Assembly (NCBI RefSeq): GCF_022012395.1
Contig: NZ_JAKLTQ010000001.1
Coordinates: forward strand, 682,001-746,000
Source of the DNA: Arthrobacter hankyongi
Lineage (GTDB): Bacteria > Actinomycetota > Actinomycetes > Actinomycetales > Micrococcaceae
DNA length: 64,000 nt
Reading direction: 5' to 3'
A model generated the notes under the pieces. That model was given only the letters and a program-made list of their open reading frames with translations, did not search any database and had not been told where the DNA came from. Both the position numbers and the translations under genes were made by a program. This document shows, in pieces, positions 8,983 to 23,039 of this stretch (the stretch's first letter is position 1; each line of letters starts with the position of its first letter).

Positions 8983-10242
8983 CTAGGCCGGGTTGTTCGC
9001 CTTCGGCGCGCCCATTCCCGGGTTGATCTGGTGCGGGCCGGAGGCCGAGGGGCGGACGTCGAAGTCGAAGATCGCCGTCGGCAGGTACACCGTCGAGCAG
9101 GAGTTCGGGATGTCCACCACGCCCGACAGCCTGCCTTCGATCGGAGCGGCGCCGAGGAGCAGGTAGGCCTGCTCCGGGCTGTAGCCGAACTTGGTCAGGT
9201 AGTCGATGGCGTGCAGGCAGGCCCGCTGGTAGGACAGGTGCGAGTCCAGGTACTTCTGCTCGCCGTCGAGGGTCACCGAGGTGCCGGAGAAGGCAAGCCA
9301 TTCGCTGAAGCGCGGATCCACGATGCCGGGCATGAAGATCGCGTTCTCGCTGACCCCATAGGTGTCCATCCCGCCCTTGATCAGGTCCACCCGCAGGTCC
9401 ATGAACCCACCCATCTCGATGGCGCCGCAGAAGGTGATTTCGCCGTCGCCCTGGGAGAAGTGCAGGTCGCCCATGGACAGGTTGGCGCCGTCTACGAACA
9501 CCGGGTAGAAGATCCGCGTACCCTTGGACATGTTCTTGATGTCCTGGTTGCCGCCGTTCTCGCGCGGCGGAGCGGTACGTGCAGCTTCCGCGGCGATGCG
9601 GTTGAACTCATCCCCTTCCAACCGGCCCAGGACCGCGTGCTCGGCCTCCGGCGGAAGCGCCAGCGGCGGAACGCGGTTTGGATCCGTGGCGATCAAATCA
9701 CCTTCGCGTTTGTTCCACTTCGCCAGTAGTGCGGCGGAAGGCGCTGTGCCCATGAGTCCCGGATGGATCAAGCCCGTGAATGAAACCCCCGGTACGTGCC
9801 GGGAGGTGGCCACCTGACCGGTGAAGTCCCAGATTGCCTTGTAGGCATCGGGGAACACGTCGGTCAGGAAACCGCCGCCGTTCTTCTTGGCGAAAATACC
9901 GGTGTAGCCCCAGCCCTGGCCGGCCAGCGGACCGGAATCCTCCTGCGGGATGGGGCCGACATCGAGAATGTCCACCACGAGGAGGTCTCCCGGCTTAGCG
10001 CCCTCGACCGCAAAAGGACCGCTCAGCTTGTGCACGGTCAGCAGCGGCGCGTTCAGGACGTCCTCGGCCGAATCATCATTGACAATCGCGCCGTCGAACC
10101 ATTCCCGGCAGTGCACCCGGAAGGATTCTCCTGGCTTGACGGTAGCAACGGCCGGAATATCCGGGTGCCACCGATTATGGCCGACGAGTTCCTGGTCCTC
10201 AAACTTTTTATTGGAATCCAACGGGAAAATTACATCGGGCAT
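8983..10242 (-). CDS. fmdA: Formamidase/acetamidase
   Basis: 419 aa, cytoplasmic member of the FmdA/AmdA family, which hydrolyses formamide or short aliphatic amides to ammonia and the acid. Family landmarks include HNRWHPDIPAV, GDLLVVDILDVGP, VSFTGLIHPGLMGTAPS, MSKGTRIFYPVFVDGANLS, MGDLHFSQGDGEITFCGAIE and GQKYLDSHLSYQRACL-type sequence near the C-terminus. Length is normal for the family. It is the last gene of the minus-strand set amiS-fmdB-fmdA, about 50 nt after fmdB. With AmiS as amide channel and FmdB as accessory protein, the operon supplies nitrogen from amides. Formamide is the likelier substrate, but acetamide cannot be excluded. Confidence 0.93.
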   Translation of the reverse strand: MPDVIFPLDSNKKFEDQELVGHNRWHPDIPAVATVKPGESFRVHCREWFDGAIVNDDSAEDVLNAPLLTVHKLSGPFAVEGAKPGDLLVVDILDVGPIPQEDSGPLAGQGWGYTGIFAKKNGGGFLTDVFPDAYKAIWDFTGQVATSRHVPGVSFTGLIHPGLMGTAPSAALLAKWNKREGDLIATDPNRVPPLALPPEAEHAVLGRLEGDEFNRIAAEAARTAPPRENGGNQDIKNMSKGTRIFYPVFVDGANLSMGDLHFSQGDGEITFCGAIEMGGFMDLRVDLIKGGMDTYGVSENAIFMPGIVDPRFSEWLAFSGTSVTLDGEQKYLDSHLSYQRACLHAIDYLTKFGYSPEQAYLLLGAAPIEGRLSGVVDIPNSCSTVYLPTAIFDFDVRPSASGPHQINPGMGAPKANNPA

Positions 10243-13535: not shown

Positions 13536-14279
13536 ATGGCATACGGCGAGCTCGATCCCTCGTCCGGAGTACCCCTGTATCGGCAGATTAAGGAAATCCT
13601 GCGCCGGGAGATCGCCGAGGGCATCGTGGATCCCCGTCGGCCGATGACCGAGGCACAGCTGCTCAGCCGGTTCGACGTCAGCCGGGCACCCATCCGGCAG
13701 GCGCTGCAGGAGCTGGCCAGCGAGGGGTACGTCTACCGAAAGCAGGGCAAGGGGACGTTCCCGGTCACGGGCGCCCGGGTACAGCGGCCGGCCGACGTGC
13801 GGTCGGGGGCCTTGTACCAATACCTTTCCGACAGCGGACTGCATCCGACGGGGAAGGTCTCCGGCATCGAGCGGGCGGAGCCGCCGGCCCGGATCCGGGA
13901 CCTGCTGGGGCTCGAAGCGCATGAGCGGCTCCTGCATTTCACCCGCCTGATCTCGGTCGAGGACCAGCCTCTGGTCGAAGCCGACGTCTACATCCGGGCA
14001 CCTGAGGATTTCAGTCCCACGGCCGCGGAACTGGAAGAGCAGGGCTCCGCCTTCGAGCTTCTGGCCAAAGAGTTCGGCATCATGCCCGTCCGGGCGGAGC
14101 ACGAGGCCTGGGCGACGGCGGCCACCGCCGAGCAGGCGGCGACCTTCGGCGTAACCGAGGGGAGCCCGCTGCTGGTCATCGAGACGATCTTTTATACGAC
14201 CGGCGACCTGCCCGCGGGGTGGCGCTCCGCGGTGCACCAGGCCGAGAACTTCAAGTACCGGTTCACCACCAGCCGGTAG
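13536..14279 (+). CDS. GntR-family regulator, HutC/UTRA type
   Basis: 247 aa. The N-terminal winged helix-turn-helix is typical (VPLYRQIKEILRREIAEGIV, then LLSRFDVSRAPIRQALQELA and GYVYRKQGKGTFP). A UTRA effector domain follows (LLHFTRLISVEDQPLVEADVYIR, PLLVIETIFYTTGDLP). Such proteins sense a pathway metabolite and usually control neighbouring genes. It precedes the catabolic island on the same strand, 240 nt ahead of the first phosphotriesterase-family gene, and an ACACCGTGT palindrome in that gap is a candidate site. The inducer is unknown. Confidence 0.9.
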   Translation: MAYGELDPSSGVPLYRQIKEILRREIAEGIVDPRRPMTEAQLLSRFDVSRAPIRQALQELASEGYVYRKQGKGTFPVTGARVQRPADVRSGALYQYLSDSGLHPTGKVSGIERAEPPARIRDLLGLEAHERLLHFTRLISVEDQPLVEADVYIRAPEDFSPTAAELEEQGSAFELLAKEFGIMPVRAEHEAWATAATAEQAATFGVTEGSPLLVIETIFYTTGDLPAGWRSAVHQAENFKYRFTTSR

Positions 14280-14519: not shown

Positions 14520-15509
14520 ATGACGGATACAACGACATCCACCAGCAAAACCGTCAATACGGTCCTTGGCCCCGTCCCCGCCCATGAACTGGGTGTGGTC
14601 GCGGTCCACGAGGCCCTGCTCTCGGTGGTTCCCGGCGCCGAGTACGCCTATGACATCACCATCGACCGGGCGGAGATCTTCGAGATCCTGGCGCAGAAGC
14701 TGACCGACTTCCGCGAGCACGGCGGGAAGACCATCGTGGACAGCACGGGCATGTTCCACGGCCGCGACCTGAAACTGTACGAGGCACTCTCGCGCTCCAC
14801 CGGCGTGCATATCGTCGCATCGACGGGCATGGGCCCGGAAGAGATGCTCGGCGGCTACTTCCTGACCCCGCAGACCAACCCGCCGACGCCGTGGCCCGCC
14901 GAGAAGTTTGCCGGCCTCTTCGCCCAGGAGGCCACCGAGGGCATGGTGGTCCCCCGCCTGGAGCGCCGCGGCGCCGCCGGCATGGTGACCGTTACCGCCA
15001 CGCGCGACGGCATGACAGCCACCGACGAAAGCCTGTTCCGCGGCGCGGCCCGCACCGCCCTGGCCACCGGGATCCCGGCCTCCATCCGGTTCGGCAAGGA
15101 CGCGCTGGTCGAACTGGAGATCGTCCTGGACGAAAAGCTCCCGGCCGACCGGGTCCTCGTCGGCGGACTGGACCGCAGGGACGCCGTCGCCGCCGGCGCG
15201 CCGCTGAAGGTGGCCGAGCGCGGCGCCTACGTCGCCCTGGACCACATCGGTCTGGAGGACGACGACGCGTACGTGAACGACCGCGAGCGCGCCACCCTGG
15301 TGCTGGACCTGGTCAAGGCCGGCCATGGCGGCCGGATCCTGCTCTCGAGCAACGCGATCGGTGTGGCCAAGGGCCAGCTCGGCCACGACGTGGCGTACAG
15401 CTACGTCGCCTCGACGTTCATCCCGCTGCTGAAGTCCCTGGGCCTGTCCGACGCGGACGCCCGGCGCATCCTCGTCGACAATCCGCGCGACCTGCTGACC
15501 GTGCGCTGA
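14520..15509 (+). CDS. Phosphotriesterase-family protein lacking metal ligands (probable pseudoenzyme)
   Basis: 329 aa, clearly related along its whole length to the next gene (shared TVLGxxPAxELGxVAxHE, GRDxxxYxxLSxxTGVHIVA and IxVDNPxDxLxxR). Aligned by eye with that paralogue, it keeps only the first metal ligand, His30. The second His of HxH is Ala32, the bridging Lys is Thr157, the two later His are Arg190 and Gly216, and the Asp is Asn278. A binuclear metal centre cannot form, so hydrolase activity of the usual kind is unlikely. The frame is intact and codon use is normal, so it is maintained. It may be a regulatory or structural partner, or use different chemistry. GAAAGG precedes the ATG. 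Confidence 0.82.
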   Translation: MTDTTTSTSKTVNTVLGPVPAHELGVVAVHEALLSVVPGAEYAYDITIDRAEIFEILAQKLTDFREHGGKTIVDSTGMFHGRDLKLYEALSRSTGVHIVASTGMGPEEMLGGYFLTPQTNPPTPWPAEKFAGLFAQEATEGMVVPRLERRGAAGMVTVTATRDGMTATDESLFRGAARTALATGIPASIRFGKDALVELEIVLDEKLPADRVLVGGLDRRDAVAAGAPLKVAERGAYVALDHIGLEDDDAYVNDRERATLVLDLVKAGHGGRILLSSNAIGVAKGQLGHDVAYSYVASTFIPLLKSLGLSDADARRILVDNPRDLLTVR

Positions 15510-15556
15510 CCGGACGACGTCGACCGAAGCTTTCTAACTTTCCTGGAGTGAAGACC

Positions 15557-16510
15557 ATGTCAAAGGTAAATACCGTCCTCGGGACGATCCCCGCCGAGGA
15601 GCTGGGCTTCGTGGCCATCCACGAGCACATCGGGTACGGCATGCCCGGTTCCGAGCTGGACACGAAGTGGTGGAAGACGCCCGAGCAGCGGTACGAGGAG
15701 ACCGTGCCGAAGCTGCGGCAGTTCCATGAGTACGGCGGCGGCACCTTCGTCGACGCCACCGGCATCTGCAACGGCCGCGACGTGGACTACTACAAGTCCC
15801 TGTCCGCCAAGACCGGGGTCCACATCGTGGCCTGCACCGGCTTCGTCGGCGGCGACACCGCACTGCCGCACTTCGCCCGGGCGACCGTGGACTACCTGTC
15901 CCGCCAGTTCATCCACGAGATCACCGTGGGCATCGGCGGCACCGGCGCCAAGGCCGGGATCATCAAGGTGGGCGTGAGCCGCGGCGGCCGGATGACCGAA
16001 CTGGACAAGCGGATCTACCGCGCGGCGGCCCGCGCCGCCGCCGCCACCGGAGTGCCGATCCTCACCCACCTGGCCATCGATCCCGAGCCCGCGGTCGCCA
16101 TCTTCAACGAAGAGGGCCTGCCGCTGGACCGGGTGCTCTTCGGGCACGTCGACGACGGCGTGAACGCCCCGATCACCCCGGACACCTGGATCGTCCAGCA
16201 GGGCGGTCGGCTGGGCTTCGACACCTTCGGCTACGAGACGGAACTGACGGACCCGCCGTTCTGGGCCCGGCCCCGCAAGGACCGCATGGACCACTTCCTC
16301 CGCTTCGTCCAGGGCGGCCAGGTGGACCGGGTGCTCGCCTCGGCCGACGCGAACTGCAGCCCGCTGGGCTGGCCGGGCGTCAAGGGCCACACGGTGAACT
16401 ACATCTTCGAGGTCCTGATCCCCGACCTGCGCAACAACGGCGTCGACGAAGAGACGATCACCAGGATCTTCGTCGACAACCCCGCCGACTTCCTGTCGAT
16501 CCGCAACTAG
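15557..16510 (+). CDS. Phosphotriesterase-like lactonase/hydrolase
   Basis: 317 aa amidohydrolase-superfamily barrel. All binuclear-metal ligands are present: His22 and His24 (AIHEHIG), carboxylated Lys137 (GIIKVG), His171 (LTHLAID), His197 (FGHVDD) and Asp264 (ASADAN). The spacing matches phosphotriesterase-like lactonases, so lactone hydrolysis is a reasonable guess; phosphotriesterase activity is usually a side reaction. GGAG lies 8 nt before the ATG. It follows its degenerate paralogue by 47 nt and precedes an FAD monooxygenase by 57 nt, suggesting one operon in which it opens a ring lactone or hydrolyses an ester. Confidence 0.88.
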   Translation: MSKVNTVLGTIPAEELGFVAIHEHIGYGMPGSELDTKWWKTPEQRYEETVPKLRQFHEYGGGTFVDATGICNGRDVDYYKSLSAKTGVHIVACTGFVGGDTALPHFARATVDYLSRQFIHEITVGIGGTGAKAGIIKVGVSRGGRMTELDKRIYRAAARAAAATGVPILTHLAIDPEPAVAIFNEEGLPLDRVLFGHVDDGVNAPITPDTWIVQQGGRLGFDTFGYETELTDPPFWARPRKDRMDHFLRFVQGGQVDRVLASADANCSPLGWPGVKGHTVNYIFEVLIPDLRNNGVDEETITRIFVDNPADFLSIRN

Positions 16511-16567: not shown

Positions 16568-17686
16568 ATGCAGACTTCGGAAATCAAGAACCTGAAAATC
16601 GCCATCGTCGGCGCGGGCTACGGCGGCGCTGCGGCGGCCAAGGCCCTGAGCCTGCTCGGTGCGGACGTCACGGTGTACGAGCAGGCGCCCGCGCTGGGCG
16701 AGGTCGGCGCCGGCATCGGCCTGCGTCCGGCCACCATGGCCCGGTTCCGCCAGTGGGGCATCTTCGACGCGATCGCGAAGGTGAGCTCTCCGAGCGACTA
16801 CTTCGAGATCCTCACGGCCACCAATGAGCCCATCATGAAGGACACCTGGCCGGAATCCGGCGAGGAGAAGCAGACCTACCTGATCCACCGCGGCGACTTC
16901 ATCGAGGCGCTGACCGGTGTGCTCCCCGAGGGCATGGTGCAGCTCGACCACAAGCTGGAAAAGATCGAGGACAAGGGCGGGACCTCCGTCCTGACCTTCG
17001 CCAACGGCAAGACCGTCGAGGCCGACCTGGTGGTCGCCGCCGACGGCATCCGCTCCACCATCCGCCAGCAGCTGTTCAGCGACAAGGGGCCGGTGTTCTC
17101 CGGTGAGCACGCCTACCGCGCGGTCATCTCCATCGATGACGCCCACGGCATGGTCACCGATGACAACCTGCGGATGTACATCGGCAAGGGCACGAAGGTC
17201 TACCTGCTGCCGCTGCGCCACCGCAACCAGCTGTCTTTCGACATCACCGCGCTGAACCCGGACAGCTCCTGGGCGCCCGACCTCACGATCGACGACCTGG
17301 TGGCAACGGTGGAGGGCTTCGATGAGCGGATCGTGGAGATCACCCGCGGGCTCGACCTGAAGGCGGTCACCATCCGCTCCGTCTGGGACATCGACCCGGT
17401 CGACAACTGGCACTCGGACTCCGTCACCCTGATGGGCGACGCGGCCCACTCGATGCTGCACCACCAGGGCCAGGGTGCCAACTCGGCCATCGAGGACGCC
17501 GGCGCCCTTGCCGACGCCCTCGCGGAGGCCGGCTCGGTCAAGGAGGCGCTCGCCCTCTTCCAGGCGACCCGGAAGCCGGTGACGGACGAACTGCAGCGCA
17601 TCTCGCGCCAGGGCTGGACCGAAGACGAGGTCAACGATGTCTTCCCCGGCCAGAAGCCCGCGTCCCAGACCCCCGCAGCCCGCTAG
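16568..17686 (+). CDS. FAD-dependent aromatic monooxygenase (salicylate/6-hydroxynicotinate hydroxylase type)
   Basis: 372 aa class A flavoprotein monooxygenase. Visible are the FAD-binding GAGYGGAAAAKALSLLGADV (about residues 16-35), the E at the end of strand two (VTVYEQ), the DG motif VVAADGIRS and the second FAD motif GDAAHSMLHHQGQGANSAIEDAG. Members use NAD(P)H and oxygen to hydroxylate an aromatic or heteroaromatic ring, often with decarboxylation. It lies between the phosphotriesterase-like gene and an esterase, 8 nt from the latter, in what looks like a ring-degradation operon. The substrate cannot be read from the sequence. Confidence 0.88.
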   Translation: MQTSEIKNLKIAIVGAGYGGAAAAKALSLLGADVTVYEQAPALGEVGAGIGLRPATMARFRQWGIFDAIAKVSSPSDYFEILTATNEPIMKDTWPESGEEKQTYLIHRGDFIEALTGVLPEGMVQLDHKLEKIEDKGGTSVLTFANGKTVEADLVVAADGIRSTIRQQLFSDKGPVFSGEHAYRAVISIDDAHGMVTDDNLRMYIGKGTKVYLLPLRHRNQLSFDITALNPDSSWAPDLTIDDLVATVEGFDERIVEITRGLDLKAVTIRSVWDIDPVDNWHSDSVTLMGDAAHSMLHHQGQGANSAIEDAGALADALAEAGSVKEALALFQATRKPVTDELQRISRQGWTEDEVNDVFPGQKPASQTPAAR

Positions 17687-17694
17687 GAGGCGCA

Positions 17695-18618
17695 GTGCCG
17701 ATCCATCCCGAAATCGCCAAGATCCTGGCCACCCTGCCGACACCCGACGGTTCCCCGCTGGACCCGGAGGCCATGCGCGCCGGCGAGGCCGCCCAGGTCC
17801 CGCCGGTCGAGGACCGGCTGCCGCTGCACGCCGTCGAGGAGGCCACTGCGGTGACGCCGTCGGGCGATGTGCCGGTGCGGATCTACACGCCGGCCGAAGC
17901 CGACGCCTATGGCCTGCTGGTGTACTTCCACGGCGGCGCCTTCTTCCTGGGCAGCCTGGACACCCACGATGCCGTCGCGCGGTCCCTGGCCAAGGAGACC
18001 GGCCATAAGGTCATCTCGGTCGGCTACCGGCTGGCCCCCGAGGCCGCCTTCCCGGCCGGCCTGGACGACTGCTATGGCGTGGTCCGCTGGGCCGCCGAGC
18101 AGGGCGCCGACCTGGGCTGGGACGGGAAGAACCTCGCCATCGCGGGCGACAGTTCGGGCGGGACCTTCGTGGCCGCCGTCGCTGCCAAGGCGCATGATGA
18201 CGGGTTCGACCGGATCACGCACCAGATTCTGTTCTACCCGTCCCTGGACCTGGACTTCGACGTCGACCGCTACGGCTCGCTGCGGGAGAACGCCGAAGGC
18301 TACGGGCTGGAGACCGCGGGCCTGAAGCCGTTCAACGCCTTCTACCTCGACAGCGGGGCGGATCCGGCAGACCCGCTGGTCTCCCCGATCAAACGCGAGG
18401 ACCTCTCCGGCCTGCCCCGGGCCCTGGTCATCACGGCCGAGTTCGACCCGCTGCGGGACGAGGGTGAACTCTACGGCCAGCGCCTGCAGGACGCCGGCGT
18501 CGAGGCGAAGGTCAGCCGCTATGCGGGCGCCAACCACGGCTTCGTCCAGAACTTCTCGTGGATCCCGGAGTTCTACCGGGCCTTCGAGGAGACGGGCCAG
18601 TTCCTCAACCGGGACTGA
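17695..18618 (+). CDS. Alpha/beta-hydrolase, Hsl/GDXG-type esterase
   Basis: 307 aa, GTG start preceded by AGGAGG. Motifs are the oxyanion-hole HGG (VYFHGGAFF), the nucleophile elbow GDSSGG with Ser153, the acid region near AEFDPLRDEG and the C-terminal His in GANHGF. It belongs to the hormone-sensitive-lipase/GDXG group that cleaves short-chain esters and some lactones. It is 8 nt from the monooxygenase, so probably co-translated and involved in the same pathway. A strong hairpin follows. Confidence 0.9.
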   Translation: MPIHPEIAKILATLPTPDGSPLDPEAMRAGEAAQVPPVEDRLPLHAVEEATAVTPSGDVPVRIYTPAEADAYGLLVYFHGGAFFLGSLDTHDAVARSLAKETGHKVISVGYRLAPEAAFPAGLDDCYGVVRWAAEQGADLGWDGKNLAIAGDSSGGTFVAAVAAKAHDDGFDRITHQILFYPSLDLDFDVDRYGSLRENAEGYGLETAGLKPFNAFYLDSGADPADPLVSPIKREDLSGLPRALVITAEFDPLRDEGELYGQRLQDAGVEAKVSRYAGANHGFVQNFSWIPEFYRAFEETGQFLNRD

Positions 18619-18756: not shown

Positions 18757-20112
18757 ATGACAACAATCAACATCAGGGACTTCATCAGCAATGCCGGCTT
18801 CAGCCGCTTCCACGCCGGCATGCTGTTCTGGGCCTGCTTCATCATCACCTTCGACATGTACGACCTGGTCGTCTACGGCTCGGTCCTGCCCGTCCTCATG
18901 AAGGAGTGGGCCCTGGGACCCGTCGAGGCGGCGCCATCGGCAGCTACGGGCTCTTCGGGATGATGGTCGGCGCCATCCTCTTCGGGATCCTGGCGGACCG
19001 CTTCGGCCGGAAACGGATGCTCATCATCAGCATCATCCTCTTCAGCGTCGCGACAGCCCTCTGCGCCGCAGCCCCGGGCCCGGTCGCATTCTCGGTCCTC
19101 CGCGCGCTGGGCGGCCTCGGCATCGGCGGCATCCTGCCCAGCATCATCGCCATGCTGACGGACTACGCGCCCAAGAACCGCGCCAGCAGCCTGGTGGCGG
19201 TCGTGATGTGCTTCTTCTCGGTCGGCGGCATCCTCGCCGCTTTCGTCGCGATGCTCCTGCTGCCCGCATTCGGCTGGCACAGCGTCTACTGGGTCGCCGC
19301 GGTTCCGCTGCTCGCCCTGCCGTTCATGACGAAGTACTTCCTCGATTCCCCGGCCATGCTCCTGGAGCAGCAGCGGTTCGAGGACTTGCGGGCCGCGCTA
19401 TCGAAGGTCAACGGCCAAACGGCCATCCCGGCGGCGGCGGAATTCACCGGGCTCCAGGAAAAGGAACCCGGCAGCCCGGTCGGCGCGCTGTTCAAGAACC
19501 GGCGCGCGCTCGGCACGCTGATGATCTGGGCCGCCTTCTTCATGTGCCTGCTCATGGTCAACGGCCTGACCACCTGGCTGCCCAAACTGATGGTCGAAGC
19601 GGGCTACGCGATGGGCTCCAGCCTGACCTTCATGATCGTCCTCAACGTGGGCGCCATCATCGGCACCCTGGTGCTGGGCCGGCTGGCCGACAAGTGGGGC
19701 GTCAAGAAGGTTCTCGTCCCCATGTTCATCGTCTCCGCGGTATCGCTGGCGCTGCTGGGCTTCGGCAACAACATGGCGGTCCTGCTGCTGCTGGTGGCGA
19801 TCACGGGCGCCTGCACCATGGGCTCGCAGAACATCTCCTACGCCTTCGTCTCCCAGTACTACCCGTCCTTCATGCGCTCGACGGCGATCGGGCTGGCCTC
19901 GGGCGTCGGGCGGATGGGCGCGATCGTCGGCCCGATGTTCGGCGGCGTGCTCCCTCACGCTGAGCCTTCCCGTCCAGATGAACTTCATCTTCTTCGCCAT
20001 CCCGGGCGTTATCGCGGCGCTGGCCTTCCTCTTCGTGCCGCTGGCCCGGAAGCAGGGGCGGGACGCAGGCAGCGTAGAGGCGGCGGTGGAATCCACGGCT
20101 TCCGCTTCGTGA
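18757..20112 (+). pseudogene. Aromatic acid:H+ symporter (AAHS family MFS), two frameshifts
   Basis: The reconstructed protein is about 450 aa, normal for AAHS transporters of benzoate-type acids (start MTTINIRDFISNAGFSRFH, TM1 with FDMYDLVVYG, then GILADRFGRKRM and GRLADKWGVKKV). One base is missing near 18926-18934, after GPVEA, and one extra base is present near 19950-19955, after MFGGVL. The original frame then resumes to a TGA at 20110-20112 and encodes LTLSLPVQMNFIFF. The middle 340 codons are intact in the shifted frame. Two compensating single-base shifts suggest either recent inactivation or sequencing errors. As written no full-length transporter can be made. Confidence 0.85.
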
Positions 20113-20197: not shown

Positions 20198-21139
20198 TCA
20201 GCGGGCCGCGCCGGCCTGCCGGCGGTAGCCGTGCATTGTGGTGAAGAACGGGGACGGCTCGAGCGTCGGGTCGCCGGTGTAGCCGAGCTGCTCGGCGACC
20301 GCGGCAAACGGCGAGTAGGCCGAGTCCGTCTCCCGCAGCCCGTCCTGCAGGTACTGCCGGGCGGCGCCGGCGATGCGGGCCTCGAGGTCGAGGCTCTGCT
20401 GGAGGGCCTGCCGGGCGCTGTCACGGTCCAGCCCGATCTCGTAGGGCTCCCCATCCGGGCCGCGGTACGGATGGCCCAGGAACAGGCGGTTGGGCTGGAC
20501 CTCATCGCGCAGATGCTCGAGGCTGGCCCGGTAGGCAGCCGGGTCTTCGTAGCCCGGGAAGCCGTTGGCCGCACCGTGGGCCTGCACGGCGTCGCCGACG
20601 AAGACGTCGTTCTGCCCATCGATGACGTAGGCCACGGATCCGGCGGTGTGGCCGGGGATGTGGTGCACCGAGACCGAGACGTCCCCACCCAGGGACAGGG
20701 TCTCGCCGCCCTTGACCAGCAGGGTCGGCTCCATCTCGCCGGAGATGGCGTGCTCGGCCATCCCGGTCTGCTCCGCCTCGGCGTTCGGATTGTCCAGGTA
20801 CTGCTGCCGTACGTCCAGGTACTGGTCCACATGCGCCCGCCGGGAGCGCAGCAGGTCGGCGTCGGCCTCGTGGATGACGACCTGGGCACGGCGGCCGGTG
20901 AGTTCCCAAAGCGCGTGCGCGCCGCCGAGATGGTCGATGTGGCCGTGCGTCAGCAGGATCCAGCGGACGTCCTCGATCCGACGGCCGAGCTTCCCGAGCG
21001 CCGGCGCCATGCCCTCGGCGGGCGACGAGGTGATCCCGGTGTCGACGATGGCGGGCTCGGGGGCGTCGATGAAGAAGCTGTAGAGGCCGAAGCGGCCCCA
21101 GGGCGACACCAGCGGATGGACATTCACTTCTTGCGTCAT
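20198..21139 (-). CDS. Metallo-beta-lactamase-fold hydrolase
   Basis: 313 aa. The zinc-binding motif HGHIDH is at residues 65-70, with further ligands expected in VHHIPGHTAGS, FVGDAV and LFLGHPYRG. The fold covers lactonases, thioesterases and glyoxalase II-like enzymes. An extra helical region at residues 90-120 and a C-terminal helical tail follow the style of lactonase or alkylsulfatase-like members rather than classic beta-lactamases. It is divergent from the CocE-type gene across an AT-rich promoter, inside the catabolic island, so hydrolysis of a lactone or ester intermediate is a reasonable but unproven guess. Confidence 0.85.
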   Translation of the reverse strand: MTQEVNVHPLVSPWGRFGLYSFFIDAPEPAIVDTGITSSPAEGMAPALGKLGRRIEDVRWILLTHGHIDHLGGAHALWELTGRRAQVVIHEADADLLRSRRAHVDQYLDVRQQYLDNPNAEAEQTGMAEHAISGEMEPTLLVKGGETLSLGGDVSVSVHHIPGHTAGSVAYVIDGQNDVFVGDAVQAHGAANGFPGYEDPAAYRASLEHLRDEVQPNRLFLGHPYRGPDGEPYEIGLDRDSARQALQQSLDLEARIAGAARQYLQDGLRETDSAYSPFAAVAEQLGYTGDPTLEPSPFFTTMHGYRRQAGAAR

Positions 21140-21302: not shown

Positions 21303-23039
21303 ATGACCGATTTCACGACGTGGAATGCCGGCGGAGAAAAGATCGCCATCCGCAAGAACCTGCGGGTTCCCATGCGCGACGGCGTCGAGCTCGCCGCCGA
21401 CGCCTACCAGGGCACCGAGGACAAGCCGCGCCCGGCGCTGGTGGCGCTGAGCCCGTACGGCAAGGAACTGCAGGCCCTGGCCCTGACCACTCCGCCGCAG
21501 CGGCGCCCGAGCCCGATGTGGGACGGCTGCATCGAGGCCGGCGACATCGCCCGGATCGTCAAGGAGGACTACGTCCATGTCATCGGGGACCTGCGCGGCT
21601 CCGGCGACTCCGGCGGCGAGCACATCGGCAACTACAACGCCGGCGGCGTGCCGCTGGGCCAGGATGCCTACGATTTCATCGAGTGGGTCGCCGCCCAGCC
21701 GTGGTGCGACGGCAATGTCGGCATGGTCGGGATCTCCTACTTCGGCTCCATGCAGGTGCTTGCCGCGGCCGAGCGCCCGCCGCATCTGAAGGCGATCTTC
21801 GTCTCCGGCGGCCACTACGACTTCTACGAGACCACCTACCACGGCGGCGTCATGTGGTTCATGCCGCGCGCCGCCCGCGAAGGCCGCGGCGGCGACTCCG
21901 GCTGGGCGTTCACCGACCGGGTCAAGTCCCGCATGGTCGAGAAATACTCCCCCGAGGAACTGAAGCTGCTCGTGAAGAAGCGCCTGCAGGACCCGGACAT
22001 CGCTGCCTGGCCGAACCTGGTCCATGTGCTGAACTACCCCAAGAACCACGAGGCCTGGTTCGACATCGTCATGAACGAGCTGGACGGGGAATGGTACGAG
22101 GAGCGCAACCCCATCACGCTGGCCCCGAACATCGACATCCCGGTCTGGCTGCAGATCGACCAGGGCCGCGGCTGGACCATGGACGGCACCATTGAACTGT
22201 TCAATTCCCTCAAGGGCCCGAAGAAGCTGGACATCGGCCCCTACCCGCCGATGCAGTCCCGGCCCTTCATCGAGGAACACGAGAAGATGTTCCGCTGGTA
22301 CGACTACTGGATCAAGGGCATCGACAACGGCGTCATGGACGAACCCGCCGTGAGCGTCTTCGTCGAAGGCTCGCGCGAGCTGGTGACCGGACAGGCGTGG
22401 CCGCCGAAGGACGTCGAATACAGGTCCCTCTACCTGCGGCCCCGGCACAAGCTGTCCACCGAGCCCGAGCTGATGGGCGCCGAATATGCCGCCCCGGACG
22501 GCTTCTACCAGGCGCCGCTGACAGTCACCGACAAGGTGGAGATCATCAGCTGGTCCACCCCGCCGTTCGAGCAGGACACGGAGATGATCGGCACCGGTGC
22601 CGCACACATCTTCGCCGAGATCGACCAGCCGGACAGCAACTTCATCCTGCGGCTGTGGGACTACGCCCCCAACGGGAAGCGCCAGCTCATCACCAGCGGC
22701 TACCTCAAGGCCTCGCACCGGGAGCTGGACGAGCGCACCACCGAAGGCAATCCGTACCACCCGCACACCCGCGCGGTACCGGTGGAGCCCGGGCAGATCG
22801 AAGAATACGTGCTGCGCCTGTACCCGTTCGCGAACACGTTCAAGCCGGGCCACAAGCTGACGATTGAACTGTCCAACGCCGAACCGCTGGCCGACGAGCA
22901 CAACGCGCTGCTCCCGCCGGACGCCTTCCACCTGCCGGTGGGCCGGCCCGTCACGCACAAGATCTACCGCGACGCCGACCATCCCTCCCGGCTCGTCCTG
23001 CCCTTCACCACCCGCAAGGCTGAAGACCCGGCGGACTGA
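21303..23039 (+). CDS. CocE/NonD-family alpha/beta hydrolase (S15-like)
   Basis: 578 aa. The N-terminal half is the X-Pro dipeptidyl-peptidase/cocaine-esterase fold: VPMRDGVELAADAY, GDLRGSGDSGG and the nucleophile GISYFG with Ser145. The C-terminal half is the jelly-roll domain (DSNFILRLWDYAPNGKRQLI, SAnding with a VELSNAEPLADE-like strand). Members cleave acyl esters or amides such as cocaine, glutaryl-7-ACA or amino esters. No signal peptide is seen, so it is cytoplasmic. It is followed 92 nt later by an alcohol dehydrogenase, suggesting that a product alcohol is oxidised next. The true substrate is unknown. Confidence 0.88.
   Translation: MTDFTTWNAGGEKIAIRKNLRVPMRDGVELAADAYQGTEDKPRPALVALSPYGKELQALALTTPPQRRPSPMWDGCIEAGDIARIVKEDYVHVIGDLRGSGDSGGEHIGNYNAGGVPLGQDAYDFIEWVAAQPWCDGNVGMVGISYFGSMQVLAAAERPPHLKAIFVSGGHYDFYETTYHGGVMWFMPRAAREGRGGDSGWAFTDRVKSRMVEKYSPEELKLLVKKRLQDPDIAAWPNLVHVLNYPKNHEAWFDIVMNELDGEWYEERNPITLAPNIDIPVWLQIDQGRGWTMDGTIELFNSLKGPKKLDIGPYPPMQSRPFIEEHEKMFRWYDYWIKGIDNGVMDEPAVSVFVEGSRELVTGQAWPPKDVEYRSLYLRPRHKLSTEPELMGAEYAAPDGFYQAPLTVTDKVEIISWSTPPFEQDTEMIGTGAAHIFAEIDQPDSNFILRLWDYAPNGKRQLITSGYLKASHRELDERTTEGNPYHPHTRAVPVEPGQIEEYVLRLYPFANTFKPGHKLTIELSNAEPLADEHNALLPPDAFHLPVGRPVTHKIYRDADHPSRLVLPFTTRKAEDPAD

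Follow-up and report, generated by a model that had tools for sequence, protein, structure and literature searches.

Why would a bacterium keep, directly upstream of an intact member of the phosphotriesterase (PTE) family, a paralogue from which the metal centre has been erased? The question is raised by two adjacent genes of Arthrobacter hankyongi, here named P1 and P2, within the 64,000-nucleotide stretch of contig NZ_JAKLTQ010000001.1 that was analysed (hereafter the window; Table 1). The answer that we favour, with moderate confidence, is that P1 is an inactive subunit which assembles with P2 and lends the loop following its third barrel strand, at the subunit interface, to the P2 active site. 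This reading rests on the predicted fold of P1, the loss of metal ligands from P1 and their integrity in P2, the adjacency of the two genes, the constraint on P1, its hyper-conserved loop and the co-variation of the two proteins.

Metal-ligand positions in P1 and P2

Both open reading frames lie where the preliminary description had placed them, on one strand and 46 bases apart, and their products share 37% identity. They are the only matches to the phosphotriesterase family profile PF02126 in the source genome (E <= 0.001), with 111.2 bits for P1 and 169.6 bits for P2 against a curated cut-off of 22.4 bits. The P1 match covers positions 4–297 of the 298 in the profile, which is nearly all of it. 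P1 is a single barrel that matches PTEs along almost its whole length, and its predicted fold is the PTE-type TIM (triosephosphate isomerase) barrel. Both proteins score below every named NCBIfam equivalog cut-off (NF041153 organophosphate hydrolase, PRK09875 and NF045706 phospho-furanose lactonase), the best scores being 118.5 of the 500 required for P2 (NF041153) and 79.3 of 486 for P1 (PRK09875).

An alignment of 86 P1 and 86 P2 rows, in which row L083 is the window itself again, sets the P2 ligands His22, His24, Lys137, His171, His197 and Asp264 against His30, Ala32, Thr157, Arg190, Gly216 and Asn278 of P1; the assignments of the preliminary description proved exact, residue for residue. 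The five His and Lys ligands of P2 are conserved in 86/86 rows and the Asp in all 84 rows that reach its position. P2 carries the six ligands (H, H, K, H, H, D) of a PTE-type binuclear metalloenzyme and looks like a binuclear hydrolase; P1 lacks this set and was not classed as a PTE enzyme. Among 28 control PTEs from other actinobacteria, one family match per genome, the beta-1 His pair was found in 27/27 and the other four ligands in 28/28 of the rows reaching the position.

The loss in P1 is general. In a survey of 115 P1 rows (110 distinct), 112 retain one of the six ligands, two rows retain two and a single row, from Caballeronia, retains none. His30 is present in 114 rows, Ala32 in 110 and Arg190 in all 115, while position 157 is occupied by A (79), T (29), V (6) or S (1), position 216 by G (88), D (22) or others (5), and position 278 by N (79), G (17), S (16), D (2) or R (1). 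The beta-1 and beta-5 sites are fixed or nearly so in their new state and the beta-4, -6 and -8 sites drift. To the question whether the same six substitutions recur in homologues paired with an intact copy, the answer is yes for the pairing (see below) and for His30, Ala32 and Arg190; a uniform fixation is not seen, as positions 157, 216 and 278 vary. The pocket of P1 also retains Glu31 and some residues of strands 2 and 3; almost every P1 has Asp74 and Gly103, the divergent copies of Caballeronia and of genome G664 among them. An Arg-Glu pair may plausibly fill the emptied site. A substitute metal site built from other residues is unsupported, with no new His/Asp/Cys cluster among the 79 near-universally conserved positions, as judged from the list of positions and not from coordinates.

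Pairing, constraint and co-variation of P1 and P2

A translated search anchored on P1 gave 120 relatives, of which 80 were kept, all with organism names from Actinomycetota. A P2 relative lies directly downstream on the same strand in 80/80 of these loci, 17 to 78 bases from the matched P1 region, and the P1 frame is open over at least 325 residues in all 80; in L063 P2 itself runs into the contig end, and in L014 its frame is broken. Because this search was anchored on P1, a second survey was anchored on P2. Genomes with a P2 orthologue (>= 71% identity) numbered 14 of 149 in the family, 5 of 394 in the class and 2 of 396 in the phylum, with 1 of 35 and 15 of 250 in two other families; these counts overlap, include the genome of the window and amount to 31 distinct genomes. 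P1 adjoins P2 upstream in 31/31 of them, in one piece in 29. It is frame-broken in G503 (L127, L144; a single-contig assembly) and lacks its first half in G949 (L185, L194), each time alongside a full-length P2. G949 still carries the flavin adenine dinucleotide (FAD) monooxygenase, alpha/beta hydrolase, metallo-beta-lactamase (MBL)-fold and CocE genes of the operon described below, so that either the first half of P1 is dispensable there or the operon is dying. Both genomes are natural test cases for whether P2 can function without P1. A chance pairing in one genome is ruled out by the 80/80 and 31/31 adjacency.

The pair is also found in a second phylum. Plasmid p2 of Caballeronia insecticola (L124; Betaproteobacteria, Burkholderiales) carries P1 (57% identity) and P2 (71%), whose annotated genes overlap by 4 bases, within a set comprising P450, ferredoxin, FAD-dependent oxidoreductase, P1, P2, FAD monooxygenase, alpha/beta hydrolase, MBL and CocE genes. 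The presence of the whole operon on a betaproteobacterial plasmid suggests transfer between phyla. Outside Actinomycetota the searches covered plasmids, with the best 40 of 175 and the best 40 of 91 records, and this was the one pair among the matches listed.

P1 is under purifying selection. The dN/dS (ratio of non-synonymous to synonymous substitution rates) of the window P1 is 0.18–0.31 in comparisons with four congeneric genomes, one Georgenia and L009 (whose values equal those of L086, probably a member of the same species). Over 561 non-independent pairs the medians are 0.27 (P1, with a maximum of 0.88) and 0.14 (P2). A dN/dS near one or scattered substitutions had been named as the signs of a decaying duplicate; neither applies to P1 overall, with the qualification that three of the six ligand positions do vary. 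Altogether, the existence of a maintained non-metal paralogue next to an intact copy is strongly supported by the adjacency, the selection and the second phylum. In a FastTree phylogeny of 20 P1, 20 P2 and 28 single PTEs, the root of which is not firmly placed, the P1s form one clade and the P2s another (support 1.00 for each), and the single PTEs cluster apart (0.85), a topology consistent with one ancient tandem duplication after which P1 lost its metal site. The persistence of the pair in many soil bacteria makes it probable that the dead twin is of help to the live one and is not junk.

The constraint on P1 culminates in the proline-rich loop after strand 3, which is longer than its counterpart in P2. 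The most conserved run of 20 residues in P1 is 111–130, with a mean conservation of 0.992 compared to 0.821 overall. The core LGGYFLTPQTNPPTPWPA is identical in Caballeronia and G664, despite P1s that are 57% and 52% identical to that of the window; in the P2-anchored genomes it shows only an N/D variation at one place where it is present, and it is missing from the shortened P1 of G949. Over residues 103–131 the identity to the window P1 is 0.90 for Caballeronia and 0.86 for G664, and over residues 189–329 it is 0.43 and 0.23, respectively. In the G664 P1 the strand-6 to strand-8 regions are shortened and loop 3 is retained.

Finally, across 2701 pairs from 74 rows (the window plus 73 loci), the evolutionary distances of P1 and P2 are correlated at 0.868 (bootstrap 0.80–0.91). 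The nine remaining pairs among P1, P2, the FAD monooxygenase, the alpha/beta hydrolase and CocE give 0.37–0.66, and the partial correlation for P1–P2 is 0.77.

What P1 may do beside P2

The preliminary description had offered three roles for P1: an activator, a scaffold in a hetero-oligomer, or a new chemistry on the same barrel. A hetero-oligomer subunit fits best among them, because it is a loop peculiar to P1, rather than the entire emptied pocket, that is constrained, and because the P1 and P2 distances co-vary; the new chemistry is disfavoured. P1 would assemble with its active tandem paralogue, most likely as PTE-family homodimers do, in a physical complex that places the loop at P2, where it may shape, cap or stabilise the binuclear metal site at the subunit interface. 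P2 would be the catalyst, hydrolysing an ester, lactone or amide of a pathway intermediate, and P1, presumably devoid of an activity of its own, would supply it with stability or specificity. A bolder version, which we put forward tentatively as somewhat short of probable, is that the pair constitutes an obligate hetero-oligomeric PTE member, in which an Arg of P1 replaces the metal centre and the loop completes the P2 active site in trans, encoded in an uncharacterised catabolic operon that has passed between Actinomycetota and Burkholderiales.

Several observations weigh against the assembly of P1 with P2 as a structural subunit. The pocket residues Arg190 and Glu31 hardly vary, if at all, and a purely structural role needs neither. 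P1 evolves faster than P2, with distances roughly 1.4-fold larger. A raised partial correlation (0.52) is also seen for the adjacent FAD monooxygenase/hydrolase pair, and since adjacent genes can be inherited or recombined jointly, the co-variation supports contact but does not prove it. An AlphaFold prediction of a fused P1–P2 chain returned two mostly confident barrels with no confident mutual orientation (predicted TM-score, pTM, 0.52). For this chain the P1 stop was read as Gly, and 17 in-frame loci with a single stop (the set omits L063, where P2 is cut, and L080–L082) were aligned with 40 single P1 or P2 chains, the L059 chain being predicted. The loop 110–130 is itself partly of low confidence in the predicted structures. 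Lastly, P1 is not always kept, because it is half lost in G949 and frame-broken in G503, and G949 retains P2 and the operon enzymes though the loop went with the first half of its P1.

The pocket lends some support to the view that P1 has a metal-free activity of its own, for instance as a lyase, isomerase or decarboxylase at the step preceding or following that of P2. With Arg190 in 115/115 rows and Glu31, Asp74 and Gly103 nearly constant among P1s, the make-up of the pocket is not random, and P1 is under purifying selection. Yet positions 157, 216 and 278 drift, mostly among small residues, and the unvarying tandem linkage exceeds what a shared pathway would need. New chemistry is disfavoured because the G664 P1, which has lost much of the strands 6–8 that close a pocket, keeps loop 3; we regard an independent activity as unlikely. 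A transient partner of P2 in regulation, folding or metal loading, or a substrate-sensing, ligand-binding subunit, would account for the pairing and the constraint just as a stable subunit does; the low confidence of the loop, common in flexible parts, and the second conserved insertion (residues 141–150), which suggests more than one contact surface, agree with it too. P1 is nevertheless one PTE-like barrel and has no separate chaperone-like or sensor domain, and we consider such a role quite improbable. That P1 is a functionless passenger, a tandem duplicate in decay, could draw on its 1.4-fold greater distances and on the broken or truncated copies in 2/31 P2-anchored genomes, but it has to face a P1 that is in one piece and adjacent in 29/31 of them, open over at least 325 residues in 80/80 P1-anchored loci, found in two phyla, with a dN/dS well below 1 and a nearly invariant 21-residue loop. 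The constraint on P1 and its spread rule out decay for practical purposes, and the chance that we leave to it is very small. An inactive subunit assembled with P2 remains the reading that we prefer, and the conserved loop and Arg190 give it precise experimental targets.

The surrounding operon and known systems

The genes around the pair are compiled in Table 1. The upstream regulator differs by locus, being GntR-type in some and TetR or LysR in others. The best PDB matches of the FAD monooxygenase are 6-hydroxynicotinate 3-monooxygenase and tropone 2-monooxygenase; a cytochrome P450 gene cluster occurs in 48/80 loci (one tested P450, that of L070, is CYP199-like), and gentisate-type or CoA-transferase genes lie near the pair in some loci. 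Taken together, the gene content points to an operon that breaks down an aromatic compound by way of ester or lactone intermediates. In the window and in nine loci (L005, L007, L009, L011, L036, L043, L057, L059, L075), all with a GntR regulator upstream, the MBL gene is encoded on the minus strand; the 54 other loci in which it was clustered have it on the plus strand. The pattern suggests two architectures of one operon. Scans for promoters, terminators and inverted repeats around the P1/P2 pair gave nothing above chance.

Table 1. Features of the P1/P2 locus (positions in the window)
Feature	Position	Strand	Remarks
GntR/UTRA-type regulator	13536..14279	+	Upstream of the pair; Pfam GntR and UTRA
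P1	14520..15510	+	PTE-family protein, 329 residues, five of six metal ligands replaced
P1 residues 110-130, LGGYFLTPQTNPPTPWPAEKF	14847..14909	+	P1-specific, Pro-rich loop that follows barrel strand 3; best-conserved part of P1
P1 residues 141-150, GMVVPRxERR	14940..14969	+	Second P1-specific conserved insertion, before strand 4
P1 Arg190	15087..15089	+	Replaces the strand-5 ligand His; 115/115 P1 rows
P2	15557..16510	+	PTE-family protein, 317 residues, six-residue binuclear metal site intact
P2 HxH motif (His22, His24)	15620..15628	+	Strand 1
FAD monooxygenase	16568..17686	+	Next gene of the conserved operon
Alpha/beta hydrolase	17695..18618	+	Hormone-sensitive-lipase-like; best NCBIfam LipP1, 305 bits, under the cut-off of 350
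MBL-fold metallo-hydrolase	20198..21139	-	Member of the operon gene set; + strand in many relatives
CocE/NonD-type hydrolase	21303..23039	+	Final conserved gene of the set

Two further genes were noted in the neighbourhood. The major facilitator superfamily (MFS) transporter of the operon, at about 18757–20100 (+), contains two frame breaks (its start in the frame of 18601, its middle in that of 18600 and its end in that of 18601), which reflect either an assembly error or a decayed gene. A formamidase, FmdA (NF045496, over cut-off), lies near the operon at 8986–10242 (-), outside the gene clusters common to at least 8 of the 80 loci.

Metal-less barrels used for assembly or binding exist elsewhere in the amidohydrolase superfamily, namely the inactive dihydroorotase-like subunits of bacterial aspartate transcarbamoylases (ATCases) and the collapsin response mediator proteins (CRMPs). 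These belong to other branches of the superfamily and are not known to be encoded in tandem with an active paralogue as part of a catabolic operon. In the open-licence literature, we found no PTE-family case of such an enzyme/pseudoenzyme pair, no paper joining a phosphotriesterase with a pseudoenzyme or CYP199 with a phosphotriesterase and, in titles and the beginnings of abstracts of the papers listed, no description of the P1/P2 pair or its operon.

Compared with the phosphotriesterases and PTE-like lactonases (PF02126: OpdA, SsoPox, SisLac), P1 lacks four to six of the six ligands (five in 112/115 rows) and has two extra conserved insertions; the known enzymes are, in the parts of the sources at hand, homodimers of active chains, in contrast to the hetero-pair proposed here. 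The PTE family is a standard model for the gain of new enzyme functions and has been studied and engineered as homodimers. If our reading is true, a natural pair with one non-catalytic barrel would allow the contribution of the PTE interface to specificity to be tested directly, and it would clearly exemplify a pseudoenzyme that a bacterial catabolic operon has retained in more than one phylum.

Two systems come closer in their mode of action. In the dihydroorotase-ATCase of Aquifex, as far as the source excerpt describes it, the activity of an amidohydrolase-type barrel depends on the reorganisation of its active site by a partner (PMC3880350); there, unlike in P1/P2, the partner is an unrelated enzyme and the dihydroorotase retains its own metal site. 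TldD/TldE is, according to the available part of its description, a paralogous pair in which one partner lacks all metal ligands, which acts as a heterodimer and of which both members are needed (PMC5810440). P1 and P2 likewise are paralogous partners with the metal ligands in one only. Fold and reaction are unrelated, the complex is proven for TldD/E and conjectural for P1/P2, and the same excerpt does not describe TldD/E as a fixed tandem, unlike P1/P2 (PMC5810440). By analogy, TldD/TldE is the best precedent for the way in which P1 may act on P2.
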